Below, piece after piece: positions 1-29,087 of a DNA stretch of 49,117 nt. Origin of the DNA: Methylococcaceae bacterium. Its GTDB lineage: Bacteria > Pseudomonadota > Gammaproteobacteria > Methylococcales > Methylococcaceae. Location: the NCBI GenBank assembly GCA_004299145.1, contig SCQD01000092.1:1-49117 (forward strand). Reading direction: 5' to 3'. The notes below the pieces were generated by a model. The model ran no database searches and was not told the origin of the DNA. It saw nothing but the letters and a program-made list of their open reading frames with translations. Position numbers and translations under genes: made by a program. The first letter of the stretch is position 1. Each line of letters opens with the position of its first letter.

Positions 1-866
1 TGAAATTCAAGATAGGCGGGCAATGCCTGCAAGCCGCGCTGTTTTTCTTCGGCCAGCAAGCTGGCGACAGCGGTGCTGGTTTGACGGCTGTCTTCTGCGT
101 GGCAACCATAAACGCGCAAACTTCCACCATGGGTAGGCAGTTCTTCCACGTTCCATACGCGCAGCCCTGCCTGGGCAAAAATGCGGCTGACTGTAAACAA
201 GGATAGGTAGGAGAAGTGTTCGTGATAGGCGGTGTCGAATTGGGCCTGCTCAATCAGCCGCATCAGGTGAGGGAACTCCAGTGTGATGGCGCCGCGCGGT
301 TTCAGGAGGACTTTCAGTCCGGCGGTAAAGTCATTGATGTCCGGCACGTGGGCATAGACGTTATTGCCGACAATCAGATCGGCTTGTTTGCCTGCGGCGG
401 CCAGGCGTTCCGCCAATGCTTTATCGAAAAATTCGCATAACACGGGGATGCCGAGGCTTTCCGCCGCAGCGGCGGTGCCGGCGGTCGGTTCTATGCCCAA
501 ACACGGAATGCCGGCCGCGACAAAATTCCGCAACAGATAACCGTCGTTGGCGGCGATCTCGATGACGTGGCTTCGTCTGTCCAAGTCCAGGCGGGCGGTG
601 ATCATGCGGGTATACAGAGCGGCGTGCTGCAGCCACGCCGGCGACACCGAGGAGAAGTACGCATAATCGGCGCTGAATAACTCGTCGGCCTGCGCAAAAT
701 CTTCGGTTTGCACCAGCCAGCAGCATTCGCAGACGTATAGCGTCAACGGAAAATAGCGTTCCGGTTTTTGCAAATCTTCCTCGCTGAGATAGGCATTGGA
801 TGGCGGAGCAAAACCCAGATTGAGAAAAACGTGTTGCAGCGGCGCTGAGCAATGGCGGCAGTTCAT
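1..866 (-). CDS. Zinc-binding sugar C-methyltransferase, 3' end cut by window edge
   Basis: SAM-dependent methyltransferase of the NovU/TylC3/TcaB9 sugar C-methyltransferase type (Methyltransf_13 then class I MTase then C-terminal domain). About 288 residues lie in the window; the C-terminal domain runs off the left edge. The N-terminus carries a zinc site, C3-x2-C6 with C46-x2-C49. The SAM loop follows (VIEIAANDGYLL), then the signature AYHEHFSYLSLF. In TcaB9 the matching Tyr-x-Glu-His residues line the active site, and all are kept here. The ATG overlaps the stop of the upstream epimerase (ATGA). It is last in view of an operon with rfbF, rfbG and an epimerase, so a CDP-4-keto-6-deoxyhexose is the likely acceptor (inference). 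Methylation at C3 or C5 cannot be told apart from sequence. Confidence 0.85.
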   Translation of the reverse strand, partial: MNCRHCSAPLQHVFLNLGFAPPSNAYLSEEDLQKPERYFPLTLYVCECCWLVQTEDFAQADELFSADYAYFSSVSPAWLQHAALYTRMITARLDLDRRSHVIEIAANDGYLLRNFVAAGIPCLGIEPTAGTAAAAESLGIPVLCEFFDKALAERLAAAGKQADLIVGNNVYAHVPDINDFTAGLKVLLKPRGAITLEFPHLMRLIEQAQFDTAYHEHFSYLSLFTVSRIFAQAGLRVWNVEELPTHGGSLRVYGCHAEDSRQTSTAVASLLAEEKQRGLQALPAYLEF

Positions 867-1414
867 GGCGTAATTCCAGGAAAATCGGGAGCGATGCATG
901 GATGGTCATGATCGCGTTGGGAAAGATCGATTATCGGCAGCGGCCAGGCTATCGCCAAACGCGGATCGCTACAGGATGCGCCGCTTTCGGCCGCCGGCAC
1001 ATACTCATGTGTGTGCAAATACAGCAATTCGCTGTCCGCCTCCAGCACCTGGAAACCGTGCGCGCAACCTTCGGGAATCACCAGCAGGCGGGCATTCTCC
1101 GGGGACAGGACTTCGGCATGCCATTGCAAAAAAGTCGGCGAGCCGGCGCGCAAATCCACTGCAACGTCCCACACGCGCCCCCTGATGCAGCGCACCAGCT
1201 TCATTTCCGCGTGCGGCGGGCGCTGATAGTGCAAGCCGCGCACCGCCCCGACCGCATGGGTGCGCGAATGGTTGATTTGTACGATGCGTCTATTGCCCAT
1301 GACGGTGCTCAATTCCTGTGCGCAATACAGGCGGGAAAACGCCCCACGGTGATCGACAAACGCCGTGGTTGTCACGACGCATATGCCCGGCAAGGCGGTT
1401 GGCTGCACGATCAT
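863..1414 (-). CDS. dTDP-4-dehydrorhamnose 3,5-epimerase-like (RmlC/RfbC cupin) protein
   Basis: Cupin-fold NDP-4-keto-6-deoxyhexose 3- or 3,5-epimerase, 183 residues, the usual RmlC length. It has the family core GLHYQRPPHAEMKLVRCIRG followed by DVAVDLRAGSPTF, which contains the catalytic His and the His-Asp dyad region; IPEGCAHGFQVL comes later. I chose the ATG at 1414 because it overlaps the rfbG stop as ATGA, like most junctions in this operon; an ATG at 1426 is the alternative. It lies between rfbG and a C-methyltransferase, so it more likely epimerises a CDP-linked 4-keto sugar than makes dTDP-rhamnose; no rmlA, rmlB or rmlD is present. Single versus double epimerisation is unresolved. 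Confidence 0.87.
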   Translation of the reverse strand: MIVQPTALPGICVVTTTAFVDHRGAFSRLYCAQELSTVMGNRRIVQINHSRTHAVGAVRGLHYQRPPHAEMKLVRCIRGRVWDVAVDLRAGSPTFLQWHAEVLSPENARLLVIPEGCAHGFQVLEADSELLYLHTHEYVPAAESGASCSDPRLAIAWPLPIIDLSQRDHDHPCIAPDFPGITP

Positions 1415-2490
1415 GCCTGGCACCATGCCACCTTGGCAGCGCGCGCCGCTGCGATATAAGCTGCCAACTGGGCGCGGCTGCACGCCGACTGCGTCGCGGC
1501 ATAATGACGGTACCAAGCCGCAGTGGCGGCCAGGGCATCGTCCAGCGTCCACAGAGGGCGCCATCCCAAAAACGCTTTGGCTTTAGCGCTGTCGAGATAC
1601 AGCAAGCCGGCTTCGTGCGGTTGGGGCCGTGCCGTGCACTGCCACGACAATGCCGGCCAATGCCGTTGCAAACGCGTCAGCATGTCCATCACGCTGGCGT
1701 TACCGTCTGGGTCGGGGCCGAAATTCCAGCTATCCGCCGTCTCTCGTCGCGCTTCCAGCAGCTTTTGTCCCAGGGACAGATAGCCGCTCAAAGATTCCAG
1801 CACGTGTTGCCAGGGGCGCGTCGCCAGGGGGGAACGAACTTCCAGCGCAGCATGCTCGTCGACGGCGCGAACCAGATCGGGCAGCAACCGGTCTTCCGAC
1901 CAATCGCCGCCGCCGATGACGTTACCCGCCCGCGCAGTAGCCAGTAGAGGGGAGTGCGGCATATTGAAAAAAGCGCGGCGATAACTGCTTACCAGCAATT
2001 CGGTGGCGGCCTTGGAAGCACTATAAGGATCGTGGCCGCCCAGGCGGTCCGTTTCCCGGTATCCCCACGACCATTCCTGGTTTTCATAACACTTGTCCGT
2101 CGTTACTACGACAATTCCTCGTATGCCGGGCGTATGGCGGCATGCTTCCAGCACGTGGGCTGTTCCCATTACGTTGGTGGACCAGGTGTCCAGCGGATTG
2201 TGGTAAGAGCGGCGCACCAGCGGCTGGGCGGCGAGGTGAAAAACCAGTTCCGGCCGGGTATTTGACAAAATGGCCGCTACAGCGGTGCTGTCGCGGATAT
2301 CCGTGCGGTGTTCGGGTATCTTCAAATCCAACAGTTCCCAGTGATTGGGACTGGTCTGCGGCGGCAAAGCCAAGCCCACGACCTCCGCGCCCAATTCGCT
2401 CAGCCATAACGCCAGCCAACTGCCTTTAAAGCCGGTATGGCCGGTCAGCAAAACCCGGCGGCCACGATAATTATCGGCAAACAATTTCAT
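1411..2490 (-). CDS. rfbG: CDP-glucose 4,6-dehydratase
   Basis: Converts CDP-D-glucose to CDP-4-keto-6-deoxy-D-glucose; extended SDR with bound NAD. The Rossmann motif is TGHTGFKGSWLALW, which is characteristic of RfbG. The catalytic tyrosine/lysine lie in DPYSASKAATELL, and a family-typical NVIGGGDWSEDRLLPD follows. The protein is 359 residues, the normal length. I start at 2490 because that ATG overlaps the rfbF stop as ATGA; an upstream in-frame ATG at 2505 would lie inside rfbF. Coupled to RfbF, it feeds the epimerase and C-methyltransferase downstream. RfbH, the 3-dehydrase for 3,6-dideoxyhexoses, is absent from the visible part. Confidence 0.95.
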   Translation of the reverse strand: MKLFADNYRGRRVLLTGHTGFKGSWLALWLSELGAEVVGLALPPQTSPNHWELLDLKIPEHRTDIRDSTAVAAILSNTRPELVFHLAAQPLVRRSYHNPLDTWSTNVMGTAHVLEACRHTPGIRGIVVVTTDKCYENQEWSWGYRETDRLGGHDPYSASKAATELLVSSYRRAFFNMPHSPLLATARAGNVIGGGDWSEDRLLPDLVRAVDEHAALEVRSPLATRPWQHVLESLSGYLSLGQKLLEARRETADSWNFGPDPDGNASVMDMLTRLQRHWPALSWQCTARPQPHEAGLLYLDSAKAKAFLGWRPLWTLDDALAATAAWYRHYAATQSACSRAQLAAYIAAARAAKVAWCQA

Positions 2491-3254
2491 GCCCAAAGTT
2501 TCCACGGTGGATTGTCCAGCCAGAGTGTTTCCAAATGGGTTTTATCGCGGAGCGTGTCCATCGCTTGCCAAAAGCCTTGATGCTGGAATGCCATTAACTG
2601 CCCGTTTTTTGCCAGATGTTCCAGCGGCGCGGCTTCCCAAGCCATAAAATCATCCTGAATCAGGTCGAACACCGCCGGCTCCAATACAAAAAAGCCGCCG
2701 TTGATCCAGGCGCCGTCACCGACGGGTTTTTCCTGAAAATTCATGACCACGCCTGCTTGAAGATTCAGTGCGCCATAGCGCCCCGGAGGCTGTATGGCGG
2801 TGACCGTCGCCTGTTTGCCGTGTGAGCGGTGAAATTGGATCAGCGCGCCGATATCCACGTCGGCAACGCCATCGCCATAGGTAAAGCAGAAAGATTCGTT
2901 GCCTATATATTTCCGCACTCGCTTAAGCCGTCCCCCTGTTAGCGTATCCTGGCCGGTATCCACCAATGTAACGCGCCATGGTTCAGCATGGGCTTCATGG
3001 ATTTCCATGCGGTTTCCCACCATGTCGAAAGTGACATCGGACATGTGTAAAAAATAATTGGCGAAATACTCTTTAATGACATATCCCTTGTAGCCCAGGC
3101 ATATGACAAAGTCGTTGACGCCATGGTGTGAATATAGTTTCATGATGTGCCATAGAATTGGCTTGCCGCCGATTTCAATCATGGGTTTTGGGCGAAGATG
3201 CGATTCTTCACTGATACGAGATCCCAGGCCCCCAGCTAAGATGACGGATTTCAT
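2487..3254 (-). CDS. rfbF: Glucose-1-phosphate cytidylyltransferase
   Basis: Makes CDP-glucose from CTP and glucose-1-phosphate, the entry step to CDP-deoxy sugars. The start MKSVILAGGLGSRISEESH and RPKPMIEIGGKPILWHIMK is the nucleotidyltransferase signature in its RfbF form. GYKGYVIKEYFANYF, TYGDGVADVD and the end region FWQAMDTLRDKTHLE are also typical. Full length at 255 residues. A 56-base gap separates it from the radical SAM gene upstream, the only sizeable gap in this operon, so a secondary promoter could lie there, though I see no clear one. It overlaps rfbG by ATGA. Confidence 0.95.
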   Translation of the reverse strand: MKSVILAGGLGSRISEESHLRPKPMIEIGGKPILWHIMKLYSHHGVNDFVICLGYKGYVIKEYFANYFLHMSDVTFDMVGNRMEIHEAHAEPWRVTLVDTGQDTLTGGRLKRVRKYIGNESFCFTYGDGVADVDIGALIQFHRSHGKQATVTAIQPPGRYGALNLQAGVVMNFQEKPVGDGAWINGGFFVLEPAVFDLIQDDFMAWEAAPLEHLAKNGQLMAFQHQGFWQAMDTLRDKTHLETLWLDNPPWKLWA

Positions 3255-3310
3255 GATTGCGCTTCAAAGATTAGTATATGATTGAAAAGATCGGATAATG
3301 TGAGAATTAG

Positions 3311-4396
3311 TTATACAAAATTATCGGCATTGGTATCGACCAAGCCTTGAATGAAAATATTCTTTCCATCGTTGGCGCATTGATGACGACACACTTCCAT
3401 CGGATTAAGCTTGTCGAAAACCTGCTTCGCTGCTTTGCTGAACCATAATTCCCGGAAGCGCTGATTACGGATGGAGCCTATCGCACCGGTTTTATCGTAA
3501 GCTTTATTGTGACAGGCATATACCACTTGATCCGCACCGACGACGGGAACGATCTGCATGAAATGGCATTTTCCATAGGAGCGCTCGGGCAGGTGGCTGC
3601 GGGATTGAATATTATAAGTGGTATTCAAAGTGAATTTATCGTCGATCAAAGTTCCCGCCTTGGCCAGTTGTTCATAGACCGCGTCCTGGATGGGCGTGTG
3701 GTAACCGACCAGATCGGGAACCCACATCGGCGAAAAACGGATATTCTCGACACCGCAATCTTTCATGATTTTCGAAAATTCATAAATATCCTGATAATTG
3801 TCGCGGTGAATGATGTAATTAATCCCCAGATCACAGTCGCGCCGCTTGATTTTGGCAAACTCTTGCAGATTTTCCAGAATCATGGCGAAGTTTTTTTCCG
3901 ACACGCCGCGTGTAGCCGCCATTTGCTGTGCGTTGGTATAGTCGATGGAAACCCGTACCCATTTTGCGTGCGCCAATACTTCGGCACGCTGTTTTTTCAG
4001 CATTTGTCCGTTGGTGATAATGGATAAATCGATGCCGTAATCCAGCGTGGTCTGCATGATTTTGACGATATCGCGATGCATCAGCGGTTCACCGCCGCCG
4101 GAATAGGTGACCGCTTTGACGCCCAAATCGCGAAAATCTTCCAGGATTTCCAGCATTTTTTCCGTGGGTAGAATGTCGTCATGCACCATGTCGGTATGCA
4201 TGCCGCTGATAATATGGTTTTCCCTGTCATTTTTGCGAAAGCCGGTGGAATAAACGCAGAAAAAACAGCTGTGATCGCAGCGATTGATCGGCTTGACCCT
4301 GACGTAAATGGGCGCGGCAATTTTTTCTTCCAAAAAAGACTGAATTTTCTCTGGAAAAAAGACGATTTTATAGTCGCTGTATTTATTGTTTTTCAT
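3311..4396 (-). CDS. Radical SAM enzyme with SPASM-like C-terminal cysteines
   Basis: Radical SAM protein of 361 residues. The [4Fe-4S]-SAM cluster motif is C40-x3-C44-x2-C47 (RCDHSCFFCVY), and the SAM-binding GGGEPL follows. The C-terminal third has a scattered cysteine set (GKCHF, YACHNK, VCRHQCAND) like SPASM/twitch auxiliary cluster domains. Its ATG overlaps the stop of the TPP-enzyme pyrimidine-domain gene (ATGA). It therefore belongs to an operon that pairs a small TPP enzyme with CDP-sugar synthesis. A role in sugar dehydration, epimerisation or C-C chemistry is plausible, but the substrate is unknown. SPASM proteins also modify peptides; no precursor peptide is visible here. Confidence 0.82.
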   Translation of the reverse strand: MKNNKYSDYKIVFFPEKIQSFLEEKIAAPIYVRVKPINRCDHSCFFCVYSTGFRKNDRENHIISGMHTDMVHDDILPTEKMLEILEDFRDLGVKAVTYSGGGEPLMHRDIVKIMQTTLDYGIDLSIITNGQMLKKQRAEVLAHAKWVRVSIDYTNAQQMAATRGVSEKNFAMILENLQEFAKIKRRDCDLGINYIIHRDNYQDIYEFSKIMKDCGVENIRFSPMWVPDLVGYHTPIQDAVYEQLAKAGTLIDDKFTLNTTYNIQSRSHLPERSYGKCHFMQIVPVVGADQVVYACHNKAYDKTGAIGSIRNQRFRELWFSKAAKQVFDKLNPMEVCRHQCANDGKNIFIQGLVDTNADNFV

Positions 4397-4926
4397 ACCA
4401 AATCTTTATATTCGACGAGGATGGTGGAAACGCCGTCGGACTGGTTTTGTGCCGCTGTGCGATAGGCATCGACTACGTCCTCCGCCGCATTCAGTTGCAG
4501 GACCGGAAAGGCAATCATGCGGCGTAATGCATCGCTGAAGTCCTGGGTATGTGTAAGTCCTGTGTACAACGGCTTGCCGCGATTGCCGACCACTGCCCGG
4601 ATGATTACAGCGGGCGAAAATTCGCCGTGAGAAATGGCATGGGCTTTGTCCAGGTGGTTTACGATGGCATCCAGGGCATTGAGGATGAAATCCATGCGTT
4701 CGATGAATACGACCGGCCGCATGCCTTTCAAGGAAAGGCCAATCGCCAAACCCAGCATCAGATTTTCCGCCACCGGGGTTTCTATGATCTGTTTGTCGTC
4801 GATTCCTTTCAGCGTGCCCAGTGCCCGTCCTTTCTGCAGGCCGTAGCCGATAAATCGAGTACTCGAGTTAGCGGCCAATGCATGATTTGCTTGCGTCAAA
4901 GCTTCTTTGTAAGTCATTGCGGTCAT
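4393..4926 (-). CDS. TPP-enzyme beta subunit, transketolase pyrimidine domain only
   Basis: Pyruvate-dehydrogenase-E1-beta-like protein of only 177 residues; the normal length is about 325-350. It contains the transketolase pyrimidine-binding (PYR) domain: YKEALTQANHALA at the start and IIETPVAENLMLGLAIGLSL, whose Glu should contact the aminopyrimidine N1' of TPP. VFIERMDFILNALDAIVNHL and a THTQDFSD loop follow. The transketolase C-terminal domain is missing entirely. It is not a frameshift product: the stop overlaps the next start as ATGA. Separately encoded PYR and PP domains without the third domain are known in sulfopyruvate decarboxylase (ComD/ComE), so it could be active with the alpha partner two genes upstream. 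Confidence 0.8.
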   Translation of the reverse strand: MTAMTYKEALTQANHALAANSSTRFIGYGLQKGRALGTLKGIDDKQIIETPVAENLMLGLAIGLSLKGMRPVVFIERMDFILNALDAIVNHLDKAHAISHGEFSPAVIIRAVVGNRGKPLYTGLTHTQDFSDALRRMIAFPVLQLNAAEDVVDAYRTAAQNQSDGVSTILVEYKDLV

Positions 4927-5693
4927 AACAGCCCCCGGTTTTTCAGGATTTCCACGGCTTCAGGCAGCGTTTTGGCGTGGACGGTGTTGGGTGCGATCAG
5001 CACTTGTTCCTGGGCAGGCAATAAAAGGCGCAGTAAGACGCTGTCTTTGTTCCAGATGTTAAACGTCGGCCAACTGGGTCCGGTGCTGACGCCGACGATG
5101 TATTTGCAGCTCAGGGACAGCCCTCCGATGGCAGTTACCGAAAGCTGTGAGTTCATGGTGCACGGCGCGTTGGTATGAGAAGGAGCTGTGGTAGCGACGG
5201 AATAACCTCGGTCCAGCAGCGCCGCGATCAATGTGTCGAAATCTGCTGGATTGAATTCTGGGAAATGGCCGCTCATGGGTGCGGAATTAATAACAAGAAA
5301 GTCATATTCGGCATAGCGGGTTTTCAAGATGGCGGGATAATCGAACAACAAGTCCTCGGCTTTTTCAAAAGGGGATATCAGTCCTAGTTTGTCGGATAAA
5401 TAGCGAAAAAAATCAAGATAAAAAACCGCGTAATCTTGCCAGCCGGCATGAGAATAAAAATAGTTGTCGCGGTTTTTCCAGGCGTCCTGAGAATGCTCCG
5501 GTTTGTAGGTAATATCGATGAGCGAAATATTAGGGATATCGCATATCACCTCTATCATTTGTGGCAGATGCGCATATTTGGCGGCGTGTACAAAATGATG
5601 GTCAGCATATCGAACCGCTTGTTTTCTCAGATAATGCAGGTGTGCCAGATTATCGCCCAAGTTATAATCGCAGTGCGTGTATAGGGTGGTCAT
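4923..5693 (-). CDS. GT9-like (heptosyltransferase-fold) protein of unknown specificity
   Basis: A 256-residue protein not matched to a named family with certainty. The N-terminus (HCDYNLGDNLAHLHYLRKQA) and a C-terminal VGVSTGPSWPTFN resemble the two Rossmann halves of GT-B enzymes of the GT9/heptosyltransferase type. There is no signal peptide or membrane segment, so it should be cytoplasmic. It is unusual in lying between the alpha (1-base gap) and beta (ATGA overlap) subunits of a small TPP enzyme, which suggests it acts on, or hands over, the product. Similar GT9-like genes occur near 23.9 kb and 29.1 kb. It could instead be a nucleotide-sugar binding protein without transferase activity. 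Confidence 0.5.
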   Translation of the reverse strand: MTTLYTHCDYNLGDNLAHLHYLRKQAVRYADHHFVHAAKYAHLPQMIEVICDIPNISLIDITYKPEHSQDAWKNRDNYFYSHAGWQDYAVFYLDFFRYLSDKLGLISPFEKAEDLLFDYPAILKTRYAEYDFLVINSAPMSGHFPEFNPADFDTLIAALLDRGYSVATTAPSHTNAPCTMNSQLSVTAIGGLSLSCKYIVGVSTGPSWPTFNIWNKDSVLLRLLLPAQEQVLIAPNTVHAKTLPEAVEILKNRGLL

Positions 5694-5694
5694 G

Positions 5695-6333
5695 TCAGCT
5701 TGCCGTCTCGGTAGTCTGCGCCAAAGGCTTAAAAGTAATCATGTGTTTGCAGCCATTGCCGGCATGCGGGTAAACCGGAGTATAGCTATGACGTACAACG
5801 CAATCCGGCCACGGCATTCTGAATGGGTTGGGCATGCGTTCTTCGATGCTGGTGTCGACGCTGCGATTGTTGTCTTCGATGATAAACGTGCAGGGTAGGT
5901 CGTGCCCTGTCACCATCATAACGGCTTCGTAAAAATGCCCCTCTTCTTCGGCGCCGTCTCCCAGGAAACACCATACCCGGTTTTTCGAGGATTCTTCTTT
6001 CAGAGCCCAGGCAACGCCTGCCGCTATGCCGCAAGTTCCAGCCAATATGGACGAAGTGAAAAAATGCCGCTGCTGGTCGAATACGAACATGCTGTCGCCC
6101 CGGCGTATCAGGTCGGTTAAGCGATTGGGATCGATGCCGCCGAGCAGAGCGTGATAGTGATTGCGGTGCGTACTGAATATCCAGTCGCCCTCATTGACTT
6201 GTTGAAAAAAATCGGCCAGCCATGCTTCATTGCCGCCGCAAAAGTGCAGTAAAAAAGGAAGGTCGCCATTTTCCCAAAGCTTGGCTATGCCCAGTTCAAA
6301 ATTAATCAAGTCATCGGCGGTTGCATAATTCAT
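5695..6333 (-). CDS. TPP-enzyme alpha subunit, short E1-alpha-like PP domain
   Basis: Thiamine-diphosphate-binding protein related to the E1 alpha subunit of 2-oxoacid dehydrogenases, about 212 residues against the usual 320-360. The TPP/Mg motif is present: GDGAEEEGHFYEA ... IIEDNNRSVDT (GDG to NN). STHRNHYHALLGG and SSILAGTCGIAAGVAWALK match the E1-alpha fold. The C-terminal part of a normal E1 alpha is missing. I prefer the ATG at 6333; an in-frame ATG at 6369 would add 12 residues unlike the family and has no ribosome site. It is the first gene of a minus-strand operon that runs to the left edge. No lipoyl E2 or E3 gene is nearby, so carboligation or decarboxylation on a sugar intermediate is more likely than a dehydrogenase complex. 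Confidence 0.82.
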   Translation of the reverse strand: MNYATADDLINFELGIAKLWENGDLPFLLHFCGGNEAWLADFFQQVNEGDWIFSTHRNHYHALLGGIDPNRLTDLIRRGDSMFVFDQQRHFFTSSILAGTCGIAAGVAWALKEESSKNRVWCFLGDGAEEEGHFYEAVMMVTGHDLPCTFIIEDNNRSVDTSIEERMPNPFRMPWPDCVVRHSYTPVYPHAGNGCKHMITFKPLAQTTETAS

Positions 6334-6420
6334 GATTACAGTCCACAAATATAAATGGAGTCCGGTCATTGTATCGGACTAATGGGGGAAAAATAGAGGG
6401 GTTTACATATAAAGCCGAAC

Positions 6421-6450
6421 TTGACGGCGGGTGTTATATCGGCGTAATAT
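6421..6450 (+). promoter_or_regulatory. Probable sigma-70 promoter of the FkbM gene
   Basis: A -35 box TTGACG is separated by 18 bases from TAATAT (4 of 6 matches to the -10 consensus). The ATG of the FkbM gene lies 37 bases downstream. It is in the divergent region (6334-6487) that must also serve the minus-strand TPP/CDP-sugar operon, for which I see no equally good promoter. Confidence 0.4.
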
Positions 6451-6487
6451 TTGAGCCGGTATTTGAGTAAATCTTGGTAAAGTTACT

Positions 6488-7063
6488 ATGAATAATAAAC
6501 ACTTTTTTGATATTGGCGGAAATATTGGTCAGACTTTCGACTGGTTGGCGACGCTGCCTCATGATTATAGCGATCATACTCTGTGGATATTTGAGCCTTC
6601 ACCGCGGCATTATGCCCAGCTGCTGGCTAAATGCCGGCAAATGTCGGCCAAATATACCATAAAGGTTTGCCCATTTGGTTTGGGCGGTAAAACGGAAACG
6701 CAGGTTTTTTTCGAAAAGGACGACGATAAGGGTGATTCGTTCGAGCCATGGCTGGCTTCGGATCACGAAGTCAATAATATATCGCAGGGCTATGAGGTTG
6801 TTGCGTCTATAGTTTCGCTCCCCGAATTTATTCTGCGTGTTACCGGTCCCGACGATGCCGTGGTGTTGGATATCGATGCCGAAGGGAGCGAGTATGCGAT
6901 GCTTGAAGCATTAGTGCAGAATAGTGCCGCCATGCAGCGAGTTTCTGAAATCATTGTCGAGTTTCACCACATCAAGGATCAAGATCGGTTTATGTCAAAA
7001 ACCGCTATCGAGGCGGAATTGGCTCGATACCATGTCAAATTGACGACGCGGGGATTTGTATAG
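6488..7063 (+). CDS. FkbM-family SAM methyltransferase
   Basis: Small (191 residues) FkbM-type methyltransferase. Its SAM site starts almost at the N-terminus (FFDIGGNIGQTFDWL), then LWIFEPSPRHY and the family signature VLDIDAEGSEYAMLEAL, with EIIVEFHH near the end. FkbM enzymes O-methylate sugars or polyketides, and in bacteria they are common in glycan and flagellin-glycosylation loci. The protein is shorter than the usual 240-270 because the N-terminal extension is absent. It is a single gene, divergent from the TPP/CDP-sugar operon and convergent with the DUF5672 gene (36 bases between stops). The ribosome site is weak. Confidence 0.85.
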   Translation: MNNKHFFDIGGNIGQTFDWLATLPHDYSDHTLWIFEPSPRHYAQLLAKCRQMSAKYTIKVCPFGLGGKTETQVFFEKDDDKGDSFEPWLASDHEVNNISQGYEVVASIVSLPEFILRVTGPDDAVVLDIDAEGSEYAMLEALVQNSAAMQRVSEIIVEFHHIKDQDRFMSKTAIEAELARYHVKLTTRGFV

Positions 7064-7099
7064 GGCCGAGGCTGTGTCGGAAAGACGCCGCATCCTCCT

Positions 7100-7900
7100 T
7101 CAAATGATGCCGGCAATTCCCAGTTCTGCAAAAACCTGTAGCCAAAAATCTTTATCCGTACGTTCCCAAGCATGCGCCCCCATCGGAAGCTTGTTGATCA
7201 GCGCAAGGTGGCGGCGCGGTTCGTATTCAAACGAAAAGTGCGAAGCGTGCACGGGGTTGGGCACGATGAAGTTGCATGAAATCTGCCCCGCCAATGCGAA
7301 AAAAATATCTTCGTTCGCATTGATCGACATTTCGTTGACCAGCGAAGTTCGCTCCACCCGCACATAAACGTCCTTATTGACCATGATTCTGTCGACGATG
7401 ACCGATAATTCCCGCAATACCTGGGCGCACGATTGAATTTTTCTTAAGGAAAATCCGCCATTACCCACGTTCATGTGTACTCTTTCTCCGGCAAATGGCG
7501 AATCCATTTCGGGGATTTCAACCACCATGCCATGTCTCCATGGCGCGCCCACATAATCGAAACAGCTGTTGGTCCAATACTCCAAATGGTCCGCGAATAC
7601 GATGGCGTCCGTCTGGACGATCAGCATGTGTGTGTATGCAGAGAAATAGACGTAGAAAAGTTCGCTTAACATCAGCGAATTGTAGGTGGAAGCCGACTGG
7701 AAAAACATCGGCGGAAAAAAAACATATTTCACTTGCGGAAAATTTGATTCATAGAACGCGATATTCATGCCTTCCGGGCATATAAACCATATGTCGTGAG
7801 CTGCAAGTATGCCGTACGAATGACGCAAGGCGATGGATTCGTTTACCGATAACGTTTCCTTGTATATGGGCGTAACTACAATGACATTGGATTTTGGCAT
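7100..7900 (-). CDS. DUF5672 putative glycosyltransferase
   Basis: Matches the DUF5672 pattern: N-terminal VTPIYKETLSVNESIALRHS, then MLIVQTDAIVF (a GT-A-like DxD region), FDYVGAPWRHG, MNVGNGGFSLRK, INANEDIFF and the end HASHFSFEYEP ... LPMGAHAWERTD. DUF5672 proteins occur in polysaccharide loci and are thought to be GT-A glycosyltransferases. Length 266 is normal. It is last in a minus-strand group after the radical SAM gene, UDP-xylose synthase and another glycosyltransferase, so a pentose donor is possible (inference). Confidence 0.82.
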   Translation of the reverse strand: MPKSNVIVVTPIYKETLSVNESIALRHSYGILAAHDIWFICPEGMNIAFYESNFPQVKYVFFPPMFFQSASTYNSLMLSELFYVYFSAYTHMLIVQTDAIVFADHLEYWTNSCFDYVGAPWRHGMVVEIPEMDSPFAGERVHMNVGNGGFSLRKIQSCAQVLRELSVIVDRIMVNKDVYVRVERTSLVNEMSINANEDIFFALAGQISCNFIVPNPVHASHFSFEYEPRRHLALINKLPMGAHAWERTDKDFWLQVFAELGIAGII

Positions 7901-7987
7901 AAAAAGTTGGTCTTCAATTGGTGTAGAGGCTATCGGCTGATATCCGGGGAATGAGTAAACTGCATGAAAAGCGCCGGCCGTTCCCGG

Positions 7988-8689
7988 TTACACTGTACTC
8001 CAATCGGTGAGTGGTGATATCCATGGCAGGTCGCAATGCGTCGCTCGACCTGGAACGCTGGAAATCAGCGTTCTGTTTTTATTTTGTATCAGTTCGCAAA
8101 AGCCGTGGTAATCGAATACCGGTGTTTTGTCAGAGTAGGCCAGCCATACGTCACGGTCTTCCCGGATAATTTTTCCGTTGGTGCCAAACGTACCCGTAGT
8201 CGAGTTGGTAAGCTTCCAGTGAGACGAGTTGGTGATCACCAGTCGCGTTACTTCTCCGCCGCCACATATCATCGGGTTTCCGCCCAGGTGGCTCTCCACG
8301 TATTTGTCCGGGTGGTCATAGAGCGTTGCGTAATTGGCGATATGCAGCCCTTCCAGCAATATCGGATAGGCATTGTCCGTGTAGAGGTAATCGTCTTCCG
8401 CGAAATAGACAAACTCCTCGTCCCTGATTTCGTCGCACGCTTTTGCCAGCAAGTGCCTGAATGAGCCCGCATTGCCCAGTGCGGTTTGTTCCAGCGTGAT
8501 ATTGGCGCATGTTTTTGCTTTCAAAAACTCGGCCAGCGGAACTTCCGTGACGTTGTCGGCGAGTATGAGGATGGAGTTTTCCGGCCGGTGAAAATGCTTT
8601 AGAAAGTTTTCCAGGCAGTGTTCCTTGGTGGCATAGGGTAGTCGGTTTTTTTTGTTGGAGTTGTTGCTGATTCTATAGTAAATTTTCAC
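7988..8689 (-). CDS. Putative GT-A type glycosyltransferase
   Basis: A 233-residue protein beginning MKIYYRISNNSNKKNRL. A central EFVYFAEDDYLYTDNAYPIL (E98-D99-D100) resembles the metal-binding DxD site of GT-A transferases, preceded by GNAGSFRHLLAKA, which could bind the nucleotide. There is no signal peptide or transmembrane segment. I do not recognise a named subfamily. It lies 41 bases downstream of the UDP-xylose synthase gene and is followed by a DUF5672 gene, a context consistent with transfer of xylose or a derivative. The fold assignment is moderate; the donor and acceptor are unknown. Confidence 0.6.
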   Translation of the reverse strand: MKIYYRISNNSNKKNRLPYATKEHCLENFLKHFHRPENSILILADNVTEVPLAEFLKAKTCANITLEQTALGNAGSFRHLLAKACDEIRDEEFVYFAEDDYLYTDNAYPILLEGLHIANYATLYDHPDKYVESHLGGNPMICGGGEVTRLVITNSSHWKLTNSTTGTFGTNGKIIREDRDVWLAYSDKTPVFDYHGFCELIQNKNRTLISSVPGRATHCDLPWISPLTDWSTV

Positions 8690-8730
8690 TCGTTCACCTG
8701 GTTATATGTTTACGCATGCATCCACCGTTA

Positions 8731-9663
8731 TTACAGTGTTCTGCTGAAGTAATCTATCGTTAATTTCAATCCGTCATCCAACGATACTCTGGGTTCCCAG
8801 GCGAGTTTTTCCTTGGCCAATGCAATATCGGGTTGCCGTTGTTTGGGATCGTCTTCCGGCAGCGGCAGGAAAACCAGTTTGGATTTGGATTTTGTAAAGC
8901 GGATGACTTTTTCCGCCAGTTCCAGCATGCTGAACTCGCCCGGGTTGCCCAGATTAACCGGGCCGATAAAGTCTTTGGGTGAGTTCATCATCTTCAATAT
9001 GCCTTCGATCAAGTCGTCGACGTAACAAAAGCTGCGCGTTTGGGTTCCGTCGCCGTAAAGCGTAATCGGTTCCCCTTTGAGCGCCTGTACGATAAAGTTG
9101 CTGACGACGCGGCCATCGTCCGGCTGCATGCGTGGTCCATAGGTGTTAAAAATACGCACCACTTTAATTTCCAGCGCGCTTTGACGCCAATAATCGAAAA
9201 ACAAGGTTTCAGCGCAACGCTTGCCCTCGTCATAACAGGAGCGAATGCCGATGGGGTTGACGCGTCCCCAGTAACTTTCCACCTGCGGATGCACTTCAGG
9301 GTCGCCGTAAACTTCGCTGGTCGATGCTTGCAATATCCGGGCCTTGACTCGCTTGGCCAGCCCCAGCACGTTGATGGCGCCGTGCACGCTGGTTTTGGTG
9401 GTTTGCACCGGATCGTGCTGGTAATAGATTGGGCTGGCGGGGCAGGCGAGGTTAAAAATACGGTCGACTTCGATATAGAGCGGTAAAGTTACGTCGTGCC
9501 GCAATAGTTCGAAGTTCGGATTGCCCAGCAGGTGCCGAATATTTTGCTTGCTGCCGGTAAAAAAATTATCCACGCAAATGACGTCTGCGCCGAGTGCCAG
9601 CAACCTTTCGCATAAGTGGCTGCCTAAAAAACCGGCTCCGCCGGTGACGAGTATTCTGTTCAT
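8731..9663 (-). CDS. UDP-glucuronate decarboxylase (UDP-xylose synthase)
   Basis: Extended SDR that oxidises and decarboxylates UDP-glucuronate to UDP-xylose. The Rossmann motif is [16 protein letters not shown]. The UXS-specific stretch [20 protein letters not shown] is followed by [34 protein letters not shown] (YxxxK) and [18 protein letters not shown]. Length 310 is typical of the short bacterial form without a membrane anchor. It starts 12 bases after the stop of the B12-type radical SAM gene, so the two are co-transcribed. UDP-glucose dehydrogenase, needed to make UDP-glucuronate, is not in the window. Confidence 0.93.
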
Positions 9664-16362: not shown

Positions 16363-17430
16363 ATGATTTATCCAAAAGCCATGCAAGCCGCCATCCTGGT
16401 TGCACAAAATCAGCCGCTGGTGATTGATGAAGTGGAGCTGCCCCAAACGCTGGATGTCGGCCAGGTTTTGGTCAAGGTCTACTACAGCGGTATCTGTGGC
16501 TCGCAATTGGGTGAAATAGACGGCGTCAAAGGAGAAGACAAATTTCTGCCGCATTTGCTGGGGCACGAAGGCTCGGGTATCGTTGTTGCGGTCGGCGCGG
16601 GGGTGCGCCATGTCGAGCCGGGTGATCGCGTTGTCTTGCATTGGCGCAAAAGCCAGGGCATTGAGGCGGTGCCGCCGCGCTACAGCTGGCGTGGTCAGCC
16701 ATTGAATGCGGGTTGGATCGCCACGTTCAACGAATACGCCATTGTGTCGGAAAACCGCGTTACCCCAATCGAAGCAAATGCCGACATGCTTGTCGCTACT
16801 CTTTATGGCTGTGCGGTGACCACTGGCTTTGGCGTGGTCGAAAACAATGCCAAAATTCGTCTGGGTGATGCCGTCGTGATTTATGGCGCCGGCGGCGTGG
16901 GCTTGAACATCGTGCAGGCCGCCGCCTTGCGTTCCGCTCACCCGATTATCGCCGTCGATCTTTACGATAATCGGTTGATGCTCGCCCAGGCTTTGGGAGC
17001 CACCCACGTAATCAATGCCAAAACCTGTGATGCAAGTGCGCGGCTCCATGAAATACTGGGTCCGCAGGGTTGCGACGTATTTATCGACAATACCGGACAG
17101 CCGCCCATCATCGAATTTGGCTACGCATTGACCAAACCCCAAGGGCGAGTCGTGTTGGTCGGCGTGCCTAAAAAGGGTAATGCGGTGGCTATTTATACCT
17201 TGCCGTTGCATTTTGGAAAAATTTTGCAAGGCTCTCATGGCGGCGAGGCCATTCCCCATGAAGATATTCCACGTTTTCAAAAGCTGCTCGACGCAGGGAA
17301 AATTCAATTAAAGCCGCTGATTACTGATAAATTTGCACTGGACCAAATCAACATGGCAATACAAAAAATGCGATCCGGTGATATTGTTGGGCGCTGTATC
17401 ATCGACATGCATGGTCATGGTGTCGAGTAA
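16363..17430 (+). CDS. Zinc-type medium-chain alcohol dehydrogenase without the structural zinc lobe
   Basis: MDR-family NAD(P)-dependent dehydrogenase of 355 residues. The catalytic zinc ligands are in SGICGSQLGEIDG and LLGHEGSGIVVAVG; the cofactor loop is VIYGAGGVGLNIVQAA. The four-cysteine structural zinc lobe is replaced by LHWRKSQGIEAVPPRYSWRG. It should oxidise an alcohol or reduce a carbonyl, and in this setting probably acts on a sugar or polyol intermediate. Just upstream of the 17.5-26.5 kb operon (78-base gap), it could be its first gene or stand alone. The ATG at 16381 is a possible alternative start. Confidence 0.87.
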   Translation: MIYPKAMQAAILVAQNQPLVIDEVELPQTLDVGQVLVKVYYSGICGSQLGEIDGVKGEDKFLPHLLGHEGSGIVVAVGAGVRHVEPGDRVVLHWRKSQGIEAVPPRYSWRGQPLNAGWIATFNEYAIVSENRVTPIEANADMLVATLYGCAVTTGFGVVENNAKIRLGDAVVIYGAGGVGLNIVQAAALRSAHPIIAVDLYDNRLMLAQALGATHVINAKTCDASARLHEILGPQGCDVFIDNTGQPPIIEFGYALTKPQGRVVLVGVPKKGNAVAIYTLPLHFGKILQGSHGGEAIPHEDIPRFQKLLDAGKIQLKPLITDKFALDQINMAIQKMRSGDIVGRCIIDMHGHGVE

Positions 17431-17508
17431 TTTATACTTTACAGACCTTACCAGTTTTTATACTGGTTAGACGAATACATACACACACCAACTGCTGCGA
17501 GTTAAGTG

Positions 17509-18168
17509 ATGGGACAGGCGATTGACTTACTGGAGCATTATCCAAAAACACCGCGCGCCGTCAGCGAGCGTGGCGCGGCCAAGAGCGAAGAGGATCGCCG
17601 TATTGCCCGGCAATTCGGCGCGGACTTTTTCGACGGAGACCGGCGTCACGGCTATGGCGGTTTTAACTACCAACCGCGCTTCTGGCAACCGGTAGTACCG
17701 ACGTTCCGTGACTATTTCGGTTTGGCGGCGGGCCAATCGCTGCTTGATGTGGGGTGCGCCAAGGGGTTTATGCTGCACGATTTGGCGACATTGATTCCGG
17801 GGTTGGTGGTTAAAGGCGTGGATGTTTCGGAATATGCCATCGCCAATGCCATTGAAGATATGCGTCCCCACGTGCAAATCGCCGATGCACAGGCGCTGCC
17901 TTTCCCTGATCGATCTTTCGACGTCGTGATATCGATCAACACCGTGCACAATCTTGAGCGTGCGGAGTGCGGCAAGGCTTTGCAGGAGATTGAACGGGTG
18001 AGCCGGGGCAAATCTTTCATTACCGTGGATGCTTACCGCAACGACGCGGAAAAAGAACGCATGTACGCCTGGAATCTGACGGCCAGGACGATTATGTCCG
18101 TCGACGAGTGGGTGGCTTTTTTTGCCGAGGTCGGTTACAGCGGCGATTATTTCTGGTTTATTCCGTGA
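17509..18168 (+). CDS. Class I SAM-dependent methyltransferase
   Basis: Methyltransferase of 219 residues. Motif I is SLLDVGCAKGFMLHDLATL, then VKGVDVSEYAI, ADAQALPFPDRSFDVVISIN (motifs II/III) and ALQEIERVSRGKSFITVDAY. I start at the ATG at 17509 and not at the GTG one codon earlier. Its stop overlaps the start of the E1-alpha-like gene (GTGA), so it is the first gene of a long coupled operon. The acceptor is unknown; O-methylation of the sugar made by the operon is a reasonable guess. Confidence 0.83.
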   Translation: MGQAIDLLEHYPKTPRAVSERGAAKSEEDRRIARQFGADFFDGDRRHGYGGFNYQPRFWQPVVPTFRDYFGLAAGQSLLDVGCAKGFMLHDLATLIPGLVVKGVDVSEYAIANAIEDMRPHVQIADAQALPFPDRSFDVVISINTVHNLERAECGKALQEIERVSRGKSFITVDAYRNDAEKERMYAWNLTARTIMSVDEWVAFFAEVGYSGDYFWFIP

Positions 18169-19133
18169 ACGTCGATCTCGCCCTGCGCCTGTTGTTTCAG
18201 ATGCAGCGCATACGCCGGGTGGAAGAGGAAATTGCGCTGCGCTATCCGCAAAACCGCATGCGCTGCCCGACGCACCTGTCGACGGGTCAGGAGGCCGTGC
18301 CGGCGGCGATTGCCGAAGTGTTGCGCAAGGACGATTTCGCCGTCAGCACTCATCGCGGCCATGCTCACTACCTCGCCAAGGGCGGCAATCTACCTGCGTT
18401 GATCGCCGAAATTTACGGCAAGGCTTCCGGTTGTTCGCGCGGCAAAGGCGGCTCGATGCACCTCATTGATTTGAGCGTCGGTTTTATGGGCACATCGGCA
18501 ATCGTCGGCAACAGCATCCCTATCGGCGTGGGTCTGGGGTTGTCGGCGCAACTGCGTGGTAGCGATCAGATCAGTTGTGTTTTTTTGGGCGATGGCGCGA
18601 TTGAAGAGGGTGTTTTTTATGAATCGCTCAATTTCGCTGCGCTGCGTTGTTTGCCCGTGCTGTTTGTCTGTGAGAACAATCTGTATTCGGTTTATTCGCC
18701 GCTGGCGGTACGGCAGCCATCCCAGCGCAGCATTGCCGGCATGGCCGCCGCTATCGGTGTCGCGGCGGCAACCTGCGACGGCAATGATGCGCTGGCTTGT
18801 TACGATCAATTGCGCGAGGCCGTGGCTCATATCCGCCGTGGCAATGGGCCGCGTTTTTTGGAGTTCGCCACTTATCGCTGGCGCGAGCATTGCGGCCCCG
18901 CTTTCGATAACGACCTCGGCTACCGCGCGGAAGCGGAGTTTCTTGCTTGGCAGGCGCGGGAACCACTGGCGCGTTTGGAATCCCGTTTGCTGGCGGCGGA
19001 TGGTTCGGCAGCGCCGCGGATTGCACAAAATCTGGCGGCCATTGAGCGTGAGGTGCTGGCAGCGTTTGCTTATGCCGAAGATGCCGCTTTTCCCGCTCCG
19101 GAAGCAGCCTTCCAGGGCGTTTACTGTGAATAA
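18165..19133 (+). CDS. E1-alpha-like TPP enzyme subunit
   Basis: Full-length homologue (322 residues) of the E1 alpha subunit of pyruvate/acetoin dehydrogenase. The TPP/Mg motif is CVFLGDGAIEEGVFYESLNF ... LFVCENNLYSVY, with STHRGHAHYLAKGG and KGGSMHLIDLSVGFMG as in E1 alpha. I start at GTG 18165, which overlaps the previous stop; longer frames begin inside the methyltransferase. It is paired with the beta gene 16 bases downstream. No lipoyl E2 or E3 gene is in the window. Similar orphan pairs in avilamycin synthesis (AviB1/AviB2) are thought to add a two-carbon branch to a sugar; that is my working model here, not something the sequence proves. Confidence 0.9.
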   Translation: MNVDLALRLLFQMQRIRRVEEEIALRYPQNRMRCPTHLSTGQEAVPAAIAEVLRKDDFAVSTHRGHAHYLAKGGNLPALIAEIYGKASGCSRGKGGSMHLIDLSVGFMGTSAIVGNSIPIGVGLGLSAQLRGSDQISCVFLGDGAIEEGVFYESLNFAALRCLPVLFVCENNLYSVYSPLAVRQPSQRSIAGMAAAIGVAAATCDGNDALACYDQLREAVAHIRRGNGPRFLEFATYRWREHCGPAFDNDLGYRAEAEFLAWQAREPLARLESRLLAADGSAAPRIAQNLAAIEREVLAAFAYAEDAAFPAPEAAFQGVYCE

Positions 19134-19149
19134 CGAATGATTTGATTGC

Positions 19150-20205
19150 ATGACCGCTCTGAATTTTGCCGCCGCCATCAACCAAGCACTGCACGTGGCG
19201 ATGGAGATGGACCCGACCGTCATTTGCTATGGGCTCGGCGTTACCGATCCCAAGGCCGTGTTCGGCACCACGGCGAACCTGGAAGCCCGTTTCGGCAAGG
19301 CGCGCGTGTTCGACATGCCGACTGCGGAAAACGCCATGACCGGTGTCGCCATCGGTGCCTCACTCGGCGGCATTCGACCGGTGATGGTGCATCAGCGCCT
19401 GGATTTTTTTCTGCTGGCGATGGATCAGCTGGTGAATGCCGCCGCGAAGTGGCATTACATGTTCGGCAGCCAGTGTTCGGTGCCGATCACGATTCGCTTG
19501 ATTTTAGGCCGTGGCTGGGGACAGGGACCCACCCATTCGCAAAATTTGCAGGCTTGGTTTGCCCACATCCCCGGCTTGAAAGTGGTTATGCCATCGACGC
19601 CGGAAGACGCCAAGGGTTTGCTGTTGGCGTCGATTTTCGATCCGAATCCAGTGGTTTTTCTTGAGCATCGCTGGCTGCACAATGCCGTGGGCGACGTGCC
19701 CGACGGGGACTTGCGCACGCCGATCGGCCCACTCAGGTTGGCGCGCCGGGGCGGGGACATAACGATAGTCGCCATGTCGTACCTGACCGTTGAAGCGCTG
19801 CACGCCATTCGCTACCTTGAAACCCGCGGTATCGATTGCGAATTGCTCGACTTGCGCACGGTTAATCCGATTGACTGGCCCGGTATCTACGCTTCGGTGG
19901 AAAAAACCGGAAAACTGTTGGTGCTGGATACGGGGTATGGCACCGGCTCAGTCGCTGGAGAAATTATTGCCCGCGTTGCCATGGAACGCATGCCATCTTT
20001 GCGTTGCGCGCCGGTACGCCTGGCAATGCCGGACGTGCCGGAACCGACCAGTTTTGCTTTGACCCAGGGGTTCCACGTCCGGGCGGGTGATATTGCCGCA
20101 ACGGTATTGCAGATGCTGGGGTGTGAACTCGCCGACGTCGCGGAAAAACTGCCCGAGCCGATACCGCACGATGTGCCGGGATCTTGGTTTACCGGGCCTT
20201 TTTAA
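19150..20205 (+). CDS. E1-beta-like TPP enzyme subunit
   Basis: Full-length (351 residues) E1 beta homologue with both domains. The PYR domain includes VFDMPTAENAMTGVAIGASL (the Glu that activates TPP) and GRGWGQGPTHSQNLQAWFAH; the transketolase C-terminal domain includes IDCELLDLRTVNPIDW and VLDTGYGTGSVAGEI. The extra C-terminal tail (VPGSWFTGPF) resembles beta subunits of acetoin or branched-chain dehydrogenases. It forms an alpha2beta2 enzyme with the gene before it and is followed 16 bases later by a sugar C-methyltransferase. It is much longer than the beta subunit near 4.4-4.9 kb, so the two are not recent duplicates. Confidence 0.9.
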   Translation: MTALNFAAAINQALHVAMEMDPTVICYGLGVTDPKAVFGTTANLEARFGKARVFDMPTAENAMTGVAIGASLGGIRPVMVHQRLDFFLLAMDQLVNAAAKWHYMFGSQCSVPITIRLILGRGWGQGPTHSQNLQAWFAHIPGLKVVMPSTPEDAKGLLLASIFDPNPVVFLEHRWLHNAVGDVPDGDLRTPIGPLRLARRGGDITIVAMSYLTVEALHAIRYLETRGIDCELLDLRTVNPIDWPGIYASVEKTGKLLVLDTGYGTGSVAGEIIARVAMERMPSLRCAPVRLAMPDVPEPTSFALTQGFHVRAGDIAATVLQMLGCELADVAEKLPEPIPHDVPGSWFTGPF

Positions 20206-20221
20206 TCATTTGAGGGCTGTC

Positions 20222-21463
20222 ATGTCCAACCAGGGCGAGTTTTCGACGAGGCGCGGATCAATCGATCAGCGTGAGCGCTGTTCGATTTGCAGTGGAGCTT
20301 TGCTCGCTGCGATTGAGCTGCCGGCATTACCGCTGACGGATACTTTCTGTCTGACGCCGGTGCAAGAGGCATTCAAGCAGCCTGAGTTATTCCGCTCTGC
20401 GGCGGCTTTGTCGATCGTTGACCAGCGGCTGTTGTATTGCCAGGCCTGTGGGCATGGGCAGCTGCAAAACCTGATCGCGCCGGAGCAACTCTACGGCAGC
20501 CACTATTGCTTTCGCAGTTCCGCAAGCGCCACCGCGCGTAAAGGCACTGACTTTTTTATGGCGGTATTGGACGAGGTGGCGTCTGACCGTCGATTTCGCT
20601 GCGCGCTTGATCTGGGCTGCAACGATCTTTATCTGCTCGGGCGCCTTGCGTCCAGGGCGGAACTTCGTGTGGGGATCGATCCGGTATGGGGGGGGCGTGA
20701 GGATGAGCGGGCGGATAAGTCCATTCTGCTGTTCGGCAAGAACGTTGATGCCGTCGATCTCAATGCGCTGCCGGAAAAGCCCGATCTGATCGTTTGCCGT
20801 CATACGCTGGAGCATCTGGTCGAGCCGCGACAGGTTGTCGAATCGCTGATGAATAGTGCCGCCGATGACGCGCTGTTCATTTTTGAGGTACCCGGTTTCG
20901 ACGGTCTATTGGAGCGATTGCGCTTCGATCAGGTATTTCATCAACACGCGCAGTATTTCACCCTGGCCTCTTTTTTGCGCCTGCTGGATGGGGTAGGCGG
21001 ACGCTATCTGTTGCACCGTTATAACTACCATGATTGGGGGGCCATGGCGGTGGTCTTTGCACGCGGCAAAACGGCGGCCCAGCCGGAGGCCAGGCGCTGG
21101 CTGCCGGCGGAAATACAGTCGCGTTATCGGCTTTTTCAAGCGCAAATGCGCCTGTCTAAAGAGGCGCTGGATTTGCATACGGATGGGATTGTGTACGGTT
21201 ACGGCGCGGCGCAGATGTTGCCGGTGCTGGGCTATCACCTGGGAACGGATTTCGGCGAATTGGTCGCAGTATTGGACGACGATCCAGCCAAGGATGGTCT
21301 CGGTTATTGGAATCTCCCGGTTAAGGTGATGCATTCCAGCCATGTCGGCGATTTGGCGCAATCCACGGTGCTGATTACTGCCGTGGATAATGTTCAGGGA
21401 ATTATGCAGAAATTATTGTCGCAGCGGCCACGGCATATTATTTATCCGCTTAGTATTATTTAA
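20222..21463 (+). CDS. Zinc-binding sugar C-methyltransferase with a variant active site
   Basis: Protein of 413 residues with the three-part layout of NDP-sugar C-methyltransferases: a zinc domain (C20-x2-C23, C73-x2-C76), a SAM fold (CALDLGCNDLYLL; VCRHTLEHLVEPRQVVESL) and a C-terminal Rossmann-like domain (YGYGAAQMLPVLGYHLG; AVLDDDPAKDGLGYWN). The signature is VFHQHAQYFTLASF: compared with the usual Y-H-E-H, Tyr is Phe and Glu is Gln, while the His thought to act as base is kept. The ATG at 20222 starts the protein; the longer frame begins inside the E1-beta gene. A shifted acceptor is likely (inference). Confidence 0.85.
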   Translation: MSNQGEFSTRRGSIDQRERCSICSGALLAAIELPALPLTDTFCLTPVQEAFKQPELFRSAAALSIVDQRLLYCQACGHGQLQNLIAPEQLYGSHYCFRSSASATARKGTDFFMAVLDEVASDRRFRCALDLGCNDLYLLGRLASRAELRVGIDPVWGGREDERADKSILLFGKNVDAVDLNALPEKPDLIVCRHTLEHLVEPRQVVESLMNSAADDALFIFEVPGFDGLLERLRFDQVFHQHAQYFTLASFLRLLDGVGGRYLLHRYNYHDWGAMAVVFARGKTAAQPEARRWLPAEIQSRYRLFQAQMRLSKEALDLHTDGIVYGYGAAQMLPVLGYHLGTDFGELVAVLDDDPAKDGLGYWNLPVKVMHSSHVGDLAQSTVLITAVDNVQGIMQKLLSQRPRHIIYPLSII

Positions 21464-21477
21464 GGGAAAAAACGACA

Positions 21478-29036: not shown

Positions 29037-29087
29037 TCAGTTGCCGTCAACGCCATTTATGAATTACGGTTATCGGGGTTGTGCTGC

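Follow-up and report, generated by a model that had tools for sequence, protein, structure and literature searches.

What is the role of a thiamine diphosphate (ThDP) enzyme that has been reduced to two short subunits and whose genes flank a gene resembling a family 9 glycosyltransferase (GT9)? This question is raised by a run of genes in a 49,117-nucleotide stretch of DNA from a Methylococcaceae bacterium (contig SCQD01000092.1 of assembly GCA_004299145.1), the whole of which is hereafter called the window. The original prediction, made from the sequence alone, had described three genes at positions 4393-6333, namely the alpha and beta subunits of a shortened E1-type enzyme (mini-E1) with the GT9-like gene between them. 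That description omitted a fourth gene, which encodes a radical SAM/SPASM enzyme (3311-4396) and overlaps the end of the beta gene by ATGA (Table 1). We read the window's set, which is otherwise met mainly in phages, as a phage-type cassette that is carried on a chromosome and probably serves to build a sugar, and comparison of gene content showed that the predicted redox slot of this cassette is occupied by the radical SAM/SPASM enzyme in the window or by a zinc alcohol dehydrogenase (ADH) elsewhere, together with a GT9-fold glycosyltransferase in many loci. We propose, at about an even chance of being right, that a keto-sugar produced by the redox enzyme is extended by two carbons through the mini-ThDP enzyme, and that the GT9 protein transfers the resulting branched sugar.

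Both short subunits score better against E1 models than against transketolase models. The alpha protein (212 residues) matches E1_dh of Pfam with 62.2 bits (cut-off 22) over profile positions 7-170 of 300, and PF02775 more weakly (25.4 bits, cut-off 21.9); the beta protein (177 residues) matches Transket_pyr with 30.1 bits (cut-off 27). The Transketolase_C domain was not found in the pair by the Pfam scan, which did detect it in the full-length E1 beta and in the split transketolase also encoded in the window. Alignment to the window's full-length E1 located D126 and N155-N156 in alpha, in agreement with the GDG-NN motif claimed for it, and Glu54, the activating glutamate noted earlier, together with His126 in beta. 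Among rows that pass length and score limits, D126 is present in 83/83 and N155 in 82/83 alpha sequences outside a divergent cellular subgroup, and Glu54 and His126 are present in all 106 beta sequences. The view that C-terminal parts of E1 proteins are missing was borne out for the Transketolase_C domain and has to be amended for alpha, which is not merely cut at its C-terminus: relative to the full-length E1 alpha, approximately 36 internal residues are missing from it, the last strand and the Tyr...His motif are retained, and approximately 58 residues beyond these are lacking. The mini-E1 therefore shares with the E1 alpha/beta of pyruvate dehydrogenase (PDH) and branched-chain 2-keto acid dehydrogenase the sequence family of both subunits, the Mg-ThDP motif, the activating glutamate and the active-site histidine, but it differs from them in having no transketolase C domain and in the loss of the internal segment and C-terminal tail of alpha.

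The reading frames are intact and the junctions are as first described, with the GT9-like gene starting at 5693, 1 base past the alpha stop, and the beta gene starting at 4926 in an ATGA overlap with the GT9-like gene. The start of alpha was placed at the ATG at 6333, which gives 212 residues (an upstream ATG at 6369 would yield 224). A scan of 84,980 species returned 93 pattern matches and 30 cellular relatives, and a beta match lies directly 3' of a short alpha in all 30 loci. Considering the cellular and viral sets, homologues measure 196-220 residues for alpha and 169-194 for beta, as counted from script-chosen starts, over the matched part only of fused chains, and leaving aside one interrupted beta gene, genes cut by contig ends and two cases in which the full-length E1 genes of the window were partially matched. 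None of these relatives is full length with the same junctions and, because they are equally short, alpha and beta are short by descent. Local decay, by which the pair would be a truncated remnant of a pyruvate dehydrogenase, draws on the missing domains alone and has a negligible probability, as equally short homologues occur in 30/30 cellular loci and in the viral set and the active-site residues are conserved; the earlier rejection of decay thus stands.

As far as can be judged from the model of a natural alpha-beta fusion (locus L008, 392 residues, 64 rows; pLDDT 90.9, pTM 0.91), which is not the window's own pair, the two subunits would be able to form a ThDP site. Its beta half superposes on residues 1-176 of the E1 beta 1w85_B (VIA-align, Z 23.2, rmsd 1.8, 169 residues) and the whole chain on residues 17-477 of the transketolase 3ooy_A (Z 21.3, rmsd 3.8, 355 residues), and the modeled fusion thus aligns over its full length with the PP and PYR parts of transketolase and has no C domain. 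This comparison of sequences and models shows alpha and beta as a putatively complete minimal ThDP enzyme of E1 descent, comprising PP and PYR and no C domain.

The model of the GT9-like protein, built with 11 phage relatives, reached a pLDDT of 86.8, and its best match was WaaC (2h1f_A; Foldseek E 1e-5; VIA Z 14.6, rmsd 3.7, 233 of 256 residues), closely followed by WaaF and TibC. Phage relatives of the protein are 45-48% identical to it. The predicted fold of the middle gene product is that of a GT9 heptosyltransferase, held in common over the whole chain with WaaC, WaaF and TibC, and the proposed GT9-like identity was right at this level. The protein differs from WaaC in its low identity (about 12%), in being some 65 residues shorter and in not matching PF01075. 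This model was matched neither by the window's protein nor by three phage relatives, no sequence family scored over its cut-off, and the sequence search retrieved no convincing solved relative and no named phage.

In the radical SAM enzyme, whose phage relatives are 66% identical (67% for beta), the cysteines 40/44/47 of the CxxxCxxC motif and the auxiliary-cluster cysteines 277/295/336/340 are invariant in 8 rows. The best solved match of its profile was BlsE (E 3e-13), followed by MoaA, the peptide enzyme 5v1q and DesII; BlsE acts on a sugar nucleoside, and DesII is a sugar enzyme. The exchange of a radical SAM enzyme for a zinc alcohol dehydrogenase occurs in deoxystreptamine synthesis (BtrN versus NeoA). 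The accessible part of PMC5461906 does not state that exchange. The four conserved C-terminal cysteines of the window's enzyme would allow one fully ligated auxiliary cluster of the kind found in BtrN, a twitch radical SAM enzyme whose auxiliary cluster is ligated by four cysteines and which oxidizes a cyclitol hydroxyl to a ketone (PMC9012708).

The phage character of the cassette emerged from searches of viral contigs, in each of which the best 80 relatives were scanned (out of 351 for alpha, and of 234, 166 and 185 in the others). The best 80 of the 351 alpha relatives are 61-70% identical to the window's alpha and thus nearer to it than the best cellular relative (57%). Moreover, a quick alpha tree placed the window in a set of 71 rows (SH-aLRT 95) in which the remaining 70 are all viral contigs. 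Genes for phage terminase, portal, major head and tape-measure proteins were recognized among the neighbors in the scanned loci (two of ten proteins had no match). In Synechococcus phage S-SM2 and Prochlorococcus phage P-TIM68 a zinc ADH is followed by a fused mini-E1 labeled 'transketolase central region', a fused protein that corresponds to phrog_34187 of PHROGs (function unknown), and an uncultured 735-kb phage has the order beta-radical SAM-alpha. Glycan regions of pelagimyophages and cyanophages carry phage glycan genes, rfaE and radical SAM gene cassettes, although the part of that source available here names no ThDP enzyme and no such cassette (PMC7029224). The parts of the cassette belong to known families; in the titles and abstract openings of the open-licence PMC literature, among the matches listed, neither a minimal E1, a minimal transketolase nor a swappable phage cassette was found described.

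The arrangement of these genes is variable. The order alpha-GT9-beta was found in 6 of the best 80 viral loci, 5 of them continuing with radical SAM as in the window and the whole group amounting to three rows after dereplication. Another 17 loci had the order GT9-beta-radical SAM-alpha, in 17 the GT9 gene was 5.6-7.4 kb upstream of alpha, and in 40 there was no GT9 gene on the DNA examined; among these loci, 33 had alpha-beta-radical SAM without GT9, 32 of them with less than 6.4 kb of upstream DNA. These data bear on the suggestion, originally read from the gene order, of an obligate complex made up of three proteins, the two subunits and the GT9 protein. The recurrence of that order in the 6 loci agrees with it, but the order is permuted elsewhere and alpha is fused straight to beta in 4/30 cellular loci and 44/67 viral ADH clusters, so that such a complex now seems very improbable. 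Other genes also enter the gap between alpha and beta, since a gene resembling, by eye, a DNA cytosine methyltransferase is located there in one locus (L068, 8615-9745).

The alpha, GT9 and radical SAM searches together provided 209 viral loci, reduced to 99 clusters by single-linkage on shared 600-base words starting with GATC. Alpha, beta, GT9 and radical SAM were present in 41 clusters, GT9 alone in 21, alpha, beta and radical SAM in 19, alpha, beta, GT9 and ADH in 10 (5 of them also with FkbM), GT9, radical SAM and transketolase in 4, and other combinations in 4. Among the 71 clusters with alpha and beta, 60 had the radical SAM gene, 10 the zinc ADH gene, none had both, and the single cluster with neither comes from a contig that ends just after beta. 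Conversely, the 65 radical SAM clusters contained the mini-E1 (60), a split transketolase instead (4) or neither (1, a 4.1-kb contig). A search with ADH, dereplicated in the same way and with each cluster represented by its longest locus, gave 67 viral clusters containing a fused mini-E1 of 381-402 residues (44), a split transketolase (9), a full-length E1 (7), a cut alpha (1) or none of these (6), and in none of the 67 was a radical SAM gene of the cassette family found within 4 kb. On the quick alpha tree, with 80 labeled rows, the redox label changes five times, at least three of the changes being forced by supported branches. The N chain of the split transketolases has 211-213 residues (L233, L236, L242), 231 (L136) or 241-250 (nine ADH-type contigs). 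Their PYR chain has 151-160 residues, and in the two that were scanned Transket_pyr was present and Transketolase_C was not found, whereas the window's bacterial transketolase keeps the latter. The split-gene transketolase of Carboxydothermus also has PP and PYR on separate chains and, going by the part of its description available, the cassette proteins differ from it in these short PYR chains (PMC7661550). Altogether, gene content shows that the putative ThDP slot is also filled by a split transketolase without C domain or, beside ADH, by a full-length E1.

These partners help to weigh whether the mini-E1 simply decarboxylates a 2-keto acid, for example in sugar-acid shortening, to an aldehyde that the dehydrogenase then reduces or oxidizes. 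Minimal PP and PYR enzymes such as sulfopyruvate decarboxylase are indeed decarboxylases, and a dehydrogenase is the partner in the ADH-type cassettes. However, enzymes of the sulfo- and phosphonopyruvate decarboxylase type have a PYR domain of their own family and the order PYR-PP, whereas the beta subunit matches Transket_pyr only and the fusions are PP-PYR; a radical SAM/SPASM enzyme would be an odd substitute for an aldehyde reductase, and transfer of ketol units would be expected of the split transketolases that occupy this slot. We regard this explanation as quite unlikely.

According to the branched-sugar proposal, an activated sugar would have one of its hydroxyls oxidized to a ketone by the redox enzyme, ThDP bound where alpha and beta meet would convert a keto acid or a ketose into an acyl or ketol anion, and addition of this anion to the ketone would yield a branched-chain sugar, which the GT9 protein might transfer to a surface glycan in the bacterium, or to the virion or host lipopolysaccharide in phages. 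In PDH the C domain of E1 beta binds E2, so its loss would fit a carboligase whose product has ceased to be passed to a lipoyl domain. E1-like pairs have been proposed or shown to attach two-carbon branches to keto-sugars in paulomycin, avilamycin and kibdelomycin (PMC12247030, PMC4802897), and split transketolases have been proposed for the same addition in miharamycin (PMC12247030). The window's E1-like pair is also located in a nucleoside diphosphate (NDP)-sugar gene cluster. This feature is common to the alphaKADH2 sugar carboligases (Plm8/Plm9, KbDH-alpha/beta and AviB1/AviB2), with which the pair is compared by description; the available parts of the sources mention no C-domain loss, phages, radical SAM or GT9 partners for them.

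The sugar itself is perhaps an NDP-heptose, of which we are less sure, because of the GT9 fold and of the HldE-like genes found in 60 of the 67 ADH clusters. The same HldE-like genes would suit a transketolase-like reaction, in which a two-carbon ketol unit is moved between phosphorylated sugars so that a precursor of heptose is supplied or lengthened, the resulting NDP-heptose being the donor for the GT9 protein, and so would the split transketolases occupying the same slot and the GmhA-like genes near several cellular relatives. Nonetheless, this reaction would leave the redox partner without a role, both subunits fit E1 models better, and HldE-like genes were found in none of the 99 clusters of the other set; we regard this explanation as unlikely. 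Counts of 'GmhA' in the ADH clusters were not relied on, as one of the two queries, an S-SM2 protein (L118, 16980-17291) labeled phosphoheptose isomerase, has a weak match to a HAD phosphatase and is not recognized by any isomerase model, a possible misannotation. The neighbor names HddA, HddC and DegT denote resemblances, and those HddA matches that were checked score far under the curated cut-off.

Several observations weigh against the branched-sugar proposal or its heptose version. The exchange of slots shows equivalent roles and not which reaction is catalyzed, and substrate, product and activity were all deduced from genes. BtrN is not among the 16 profile matches of the radical SAM enzyme at E 0.01, and no redox gene of either family scored over the limits in the examined stretches of 24 cellular relatives (L015-L037 and L007), a weak ADH match of 78 bits occurring in L035. 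Additionally, of the 53 loci with GT9 alone, 49 have less than about 6 kb of downstream DNA, but the contigs L179 and L189 have more than 8 kb and still no alpha; the ADH contig L259, with flanks of 7.9 and 9.0 kb, has no ThDP gene found. Concerning heptose, HldE-like genes were found in 0/99 of the alpha, GT9 and radical SAM clusters within the DNA examined, nearly all heptose assignments checked score below curated equivalog cut-offs, and the genes that come after the cassette in the window are for CDP-glucose rather than heptose.

On a broader scale, we tentatively suggest, with somewhat less than an even chance, a modular phage pathway for a branched or higher-carbon sugar, composed of a redox slot and a ThDP slot, for which E1 and transketolase would have been stripped independently to PP and PYR. 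The sugar, possibly derived from NDP-heptose, would be attached to virions or host lipopolysaccharide through the GT9 protein, and bacterial surface clusters, that of the window among them, would have taken the module over. If true, a sugar pathway with very small ThDP enzymes derived from both E1 and transketolase would be widespread among phages, and the pairings of redox partner and ThDP enzyme would represent a natural experiment on the roles of these enzymes. Besides, single-chain ThDP enzymes of about 400 residues that perhaps accept ketones would be useful, as ketone-accepting ThDP enzymes are tools for obtaining tertiary alcohols (PMC12247030).

The cellular relatives come from Aminicenantes, Nanoarchaeota, Prochlorococcus, Pelagibacteraceae, SAR86, SAR116, Verrucomicrobia, Betaproteobacteria and others. 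Whole genomes rarely contain a close relative: at E 1e-25 the class has 2 of 369 and at E 1e-30 the phylum has 2 of 398, each count including the window's genome; another genome of the class (G291) carries a relative. The GT9-like gene is rare in bacteria as well, since among 38 genomes of the family and the 369 of the class it was found only in the window's genome. A plasmid search with alpha gave 317 records, all below 60% identity, and the 20 listed have E1-type or other ThDP labels or are unannotated. In the divergent cellular subgroup (the 24 rows L015-L037 and L007) the GDG of the Mg-ThDP motif is replaced by GEM in 16 and by GDM in 8, possibly a change of metal ligand, and many of these alpha genes adjoin GHMP-kinase and B12-radical SAM genes. 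The interrupted beta gene mentioned above (L009, 2506-3036) has one in-frame stop on a contig of a metagenome-assembled genome, and the beta of L024 ends at the contig edge.

After the window's radical SAM gene come genes for glucose-1-phosphate cytidylyltransferase (rfbF) and CDP-glucose 4,6-dehydratase (rfbG), both over their NCBIfam cut-offs, and next an RmlC-like gene, which indicates that the cassette is set in a surface-sugar cluster. Relatives of the neighboring FkbM protein, up to 43% identical, occur near alpha in the phage loci L121, L122, L125 and L129. Since a second ThDP cluster (16363-23959), with zinc ADH, methyltransferase, full-length E1 alpha/beta, SDR and bacterial split transketolase with C domain, is also present, three ThDP enzymes are encoded within 20 kb.

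Table 1. Genes of the cassette and related features in the window.
Feature	Position	Strand	Evidence or remark
Mini-E1 alpha, PP domain of ThDP enzyme, 212 residues	5695..6333	-	PF00676 62.2 bits; GDG...N motif
GT9-fold glycosyltransferase (predicted), 256 residues	4923..5693	-	AF2 model pLDDT 86.8; no Pfam family over cut-off
Mini-E1 beta, PYR domain only, 177 residues	4393..4926	-	PF02779 30.1 bits; no Transketolase_C
Radical SAM/SPASM (twitch-like) enzyme, 361 residues	3311..4396	-	PF04055 66.6 and PF13186 24.3 bits, both over cut-off
FkbM-family methyltransferase, divergent neighbor, optional member	6488..7063	+	PF05050 42.6 bits
Zinc alcohol dehydrogenase; its family fills the radical SAM slot in other cassettes	16363..17430	+	Second ThDP cluster
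Full-length E1 alpha of second cluster	18108-19133	+	PF00676 over its length
Full-length E1 beta of second cluster	19150-20205	+	PF02779 plus PF02780

A recent prophage was rejected as the source of the window's cassette, as the window has no tRNA and positions 863-9663 have no near-identical DNA in the 'phages' collection; no phage structural gene was noticed beside the cassette, part of the window's genes having been compared with Pfam or PHROGs. An anti-phage defence system was also rejected: viperin models of PADLOC alone match the radical SAM protein, within residues 37-218 (the shared core), and PADLOC gave no match for the alpha, GT9-like and beta proteins. Three proteins of 340-415 residues in the sugar cluster (23896-24918, 29079-30209, 32623-33870) have no Pfam match, and two genes of PF02461, the methane/ammonia monooxygenase family, are carried by the same genome, whose bacterium is probably a gammaproteobacterial methanotroph. 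The HldE-like proteins of the window (30238-31713) and of L010 (6362-7915) have a swapped domain order, with the cytidylyltransferase ahead of the PfkB kinase, and in that of L011 (2905-4233) the kinase domain comes first.

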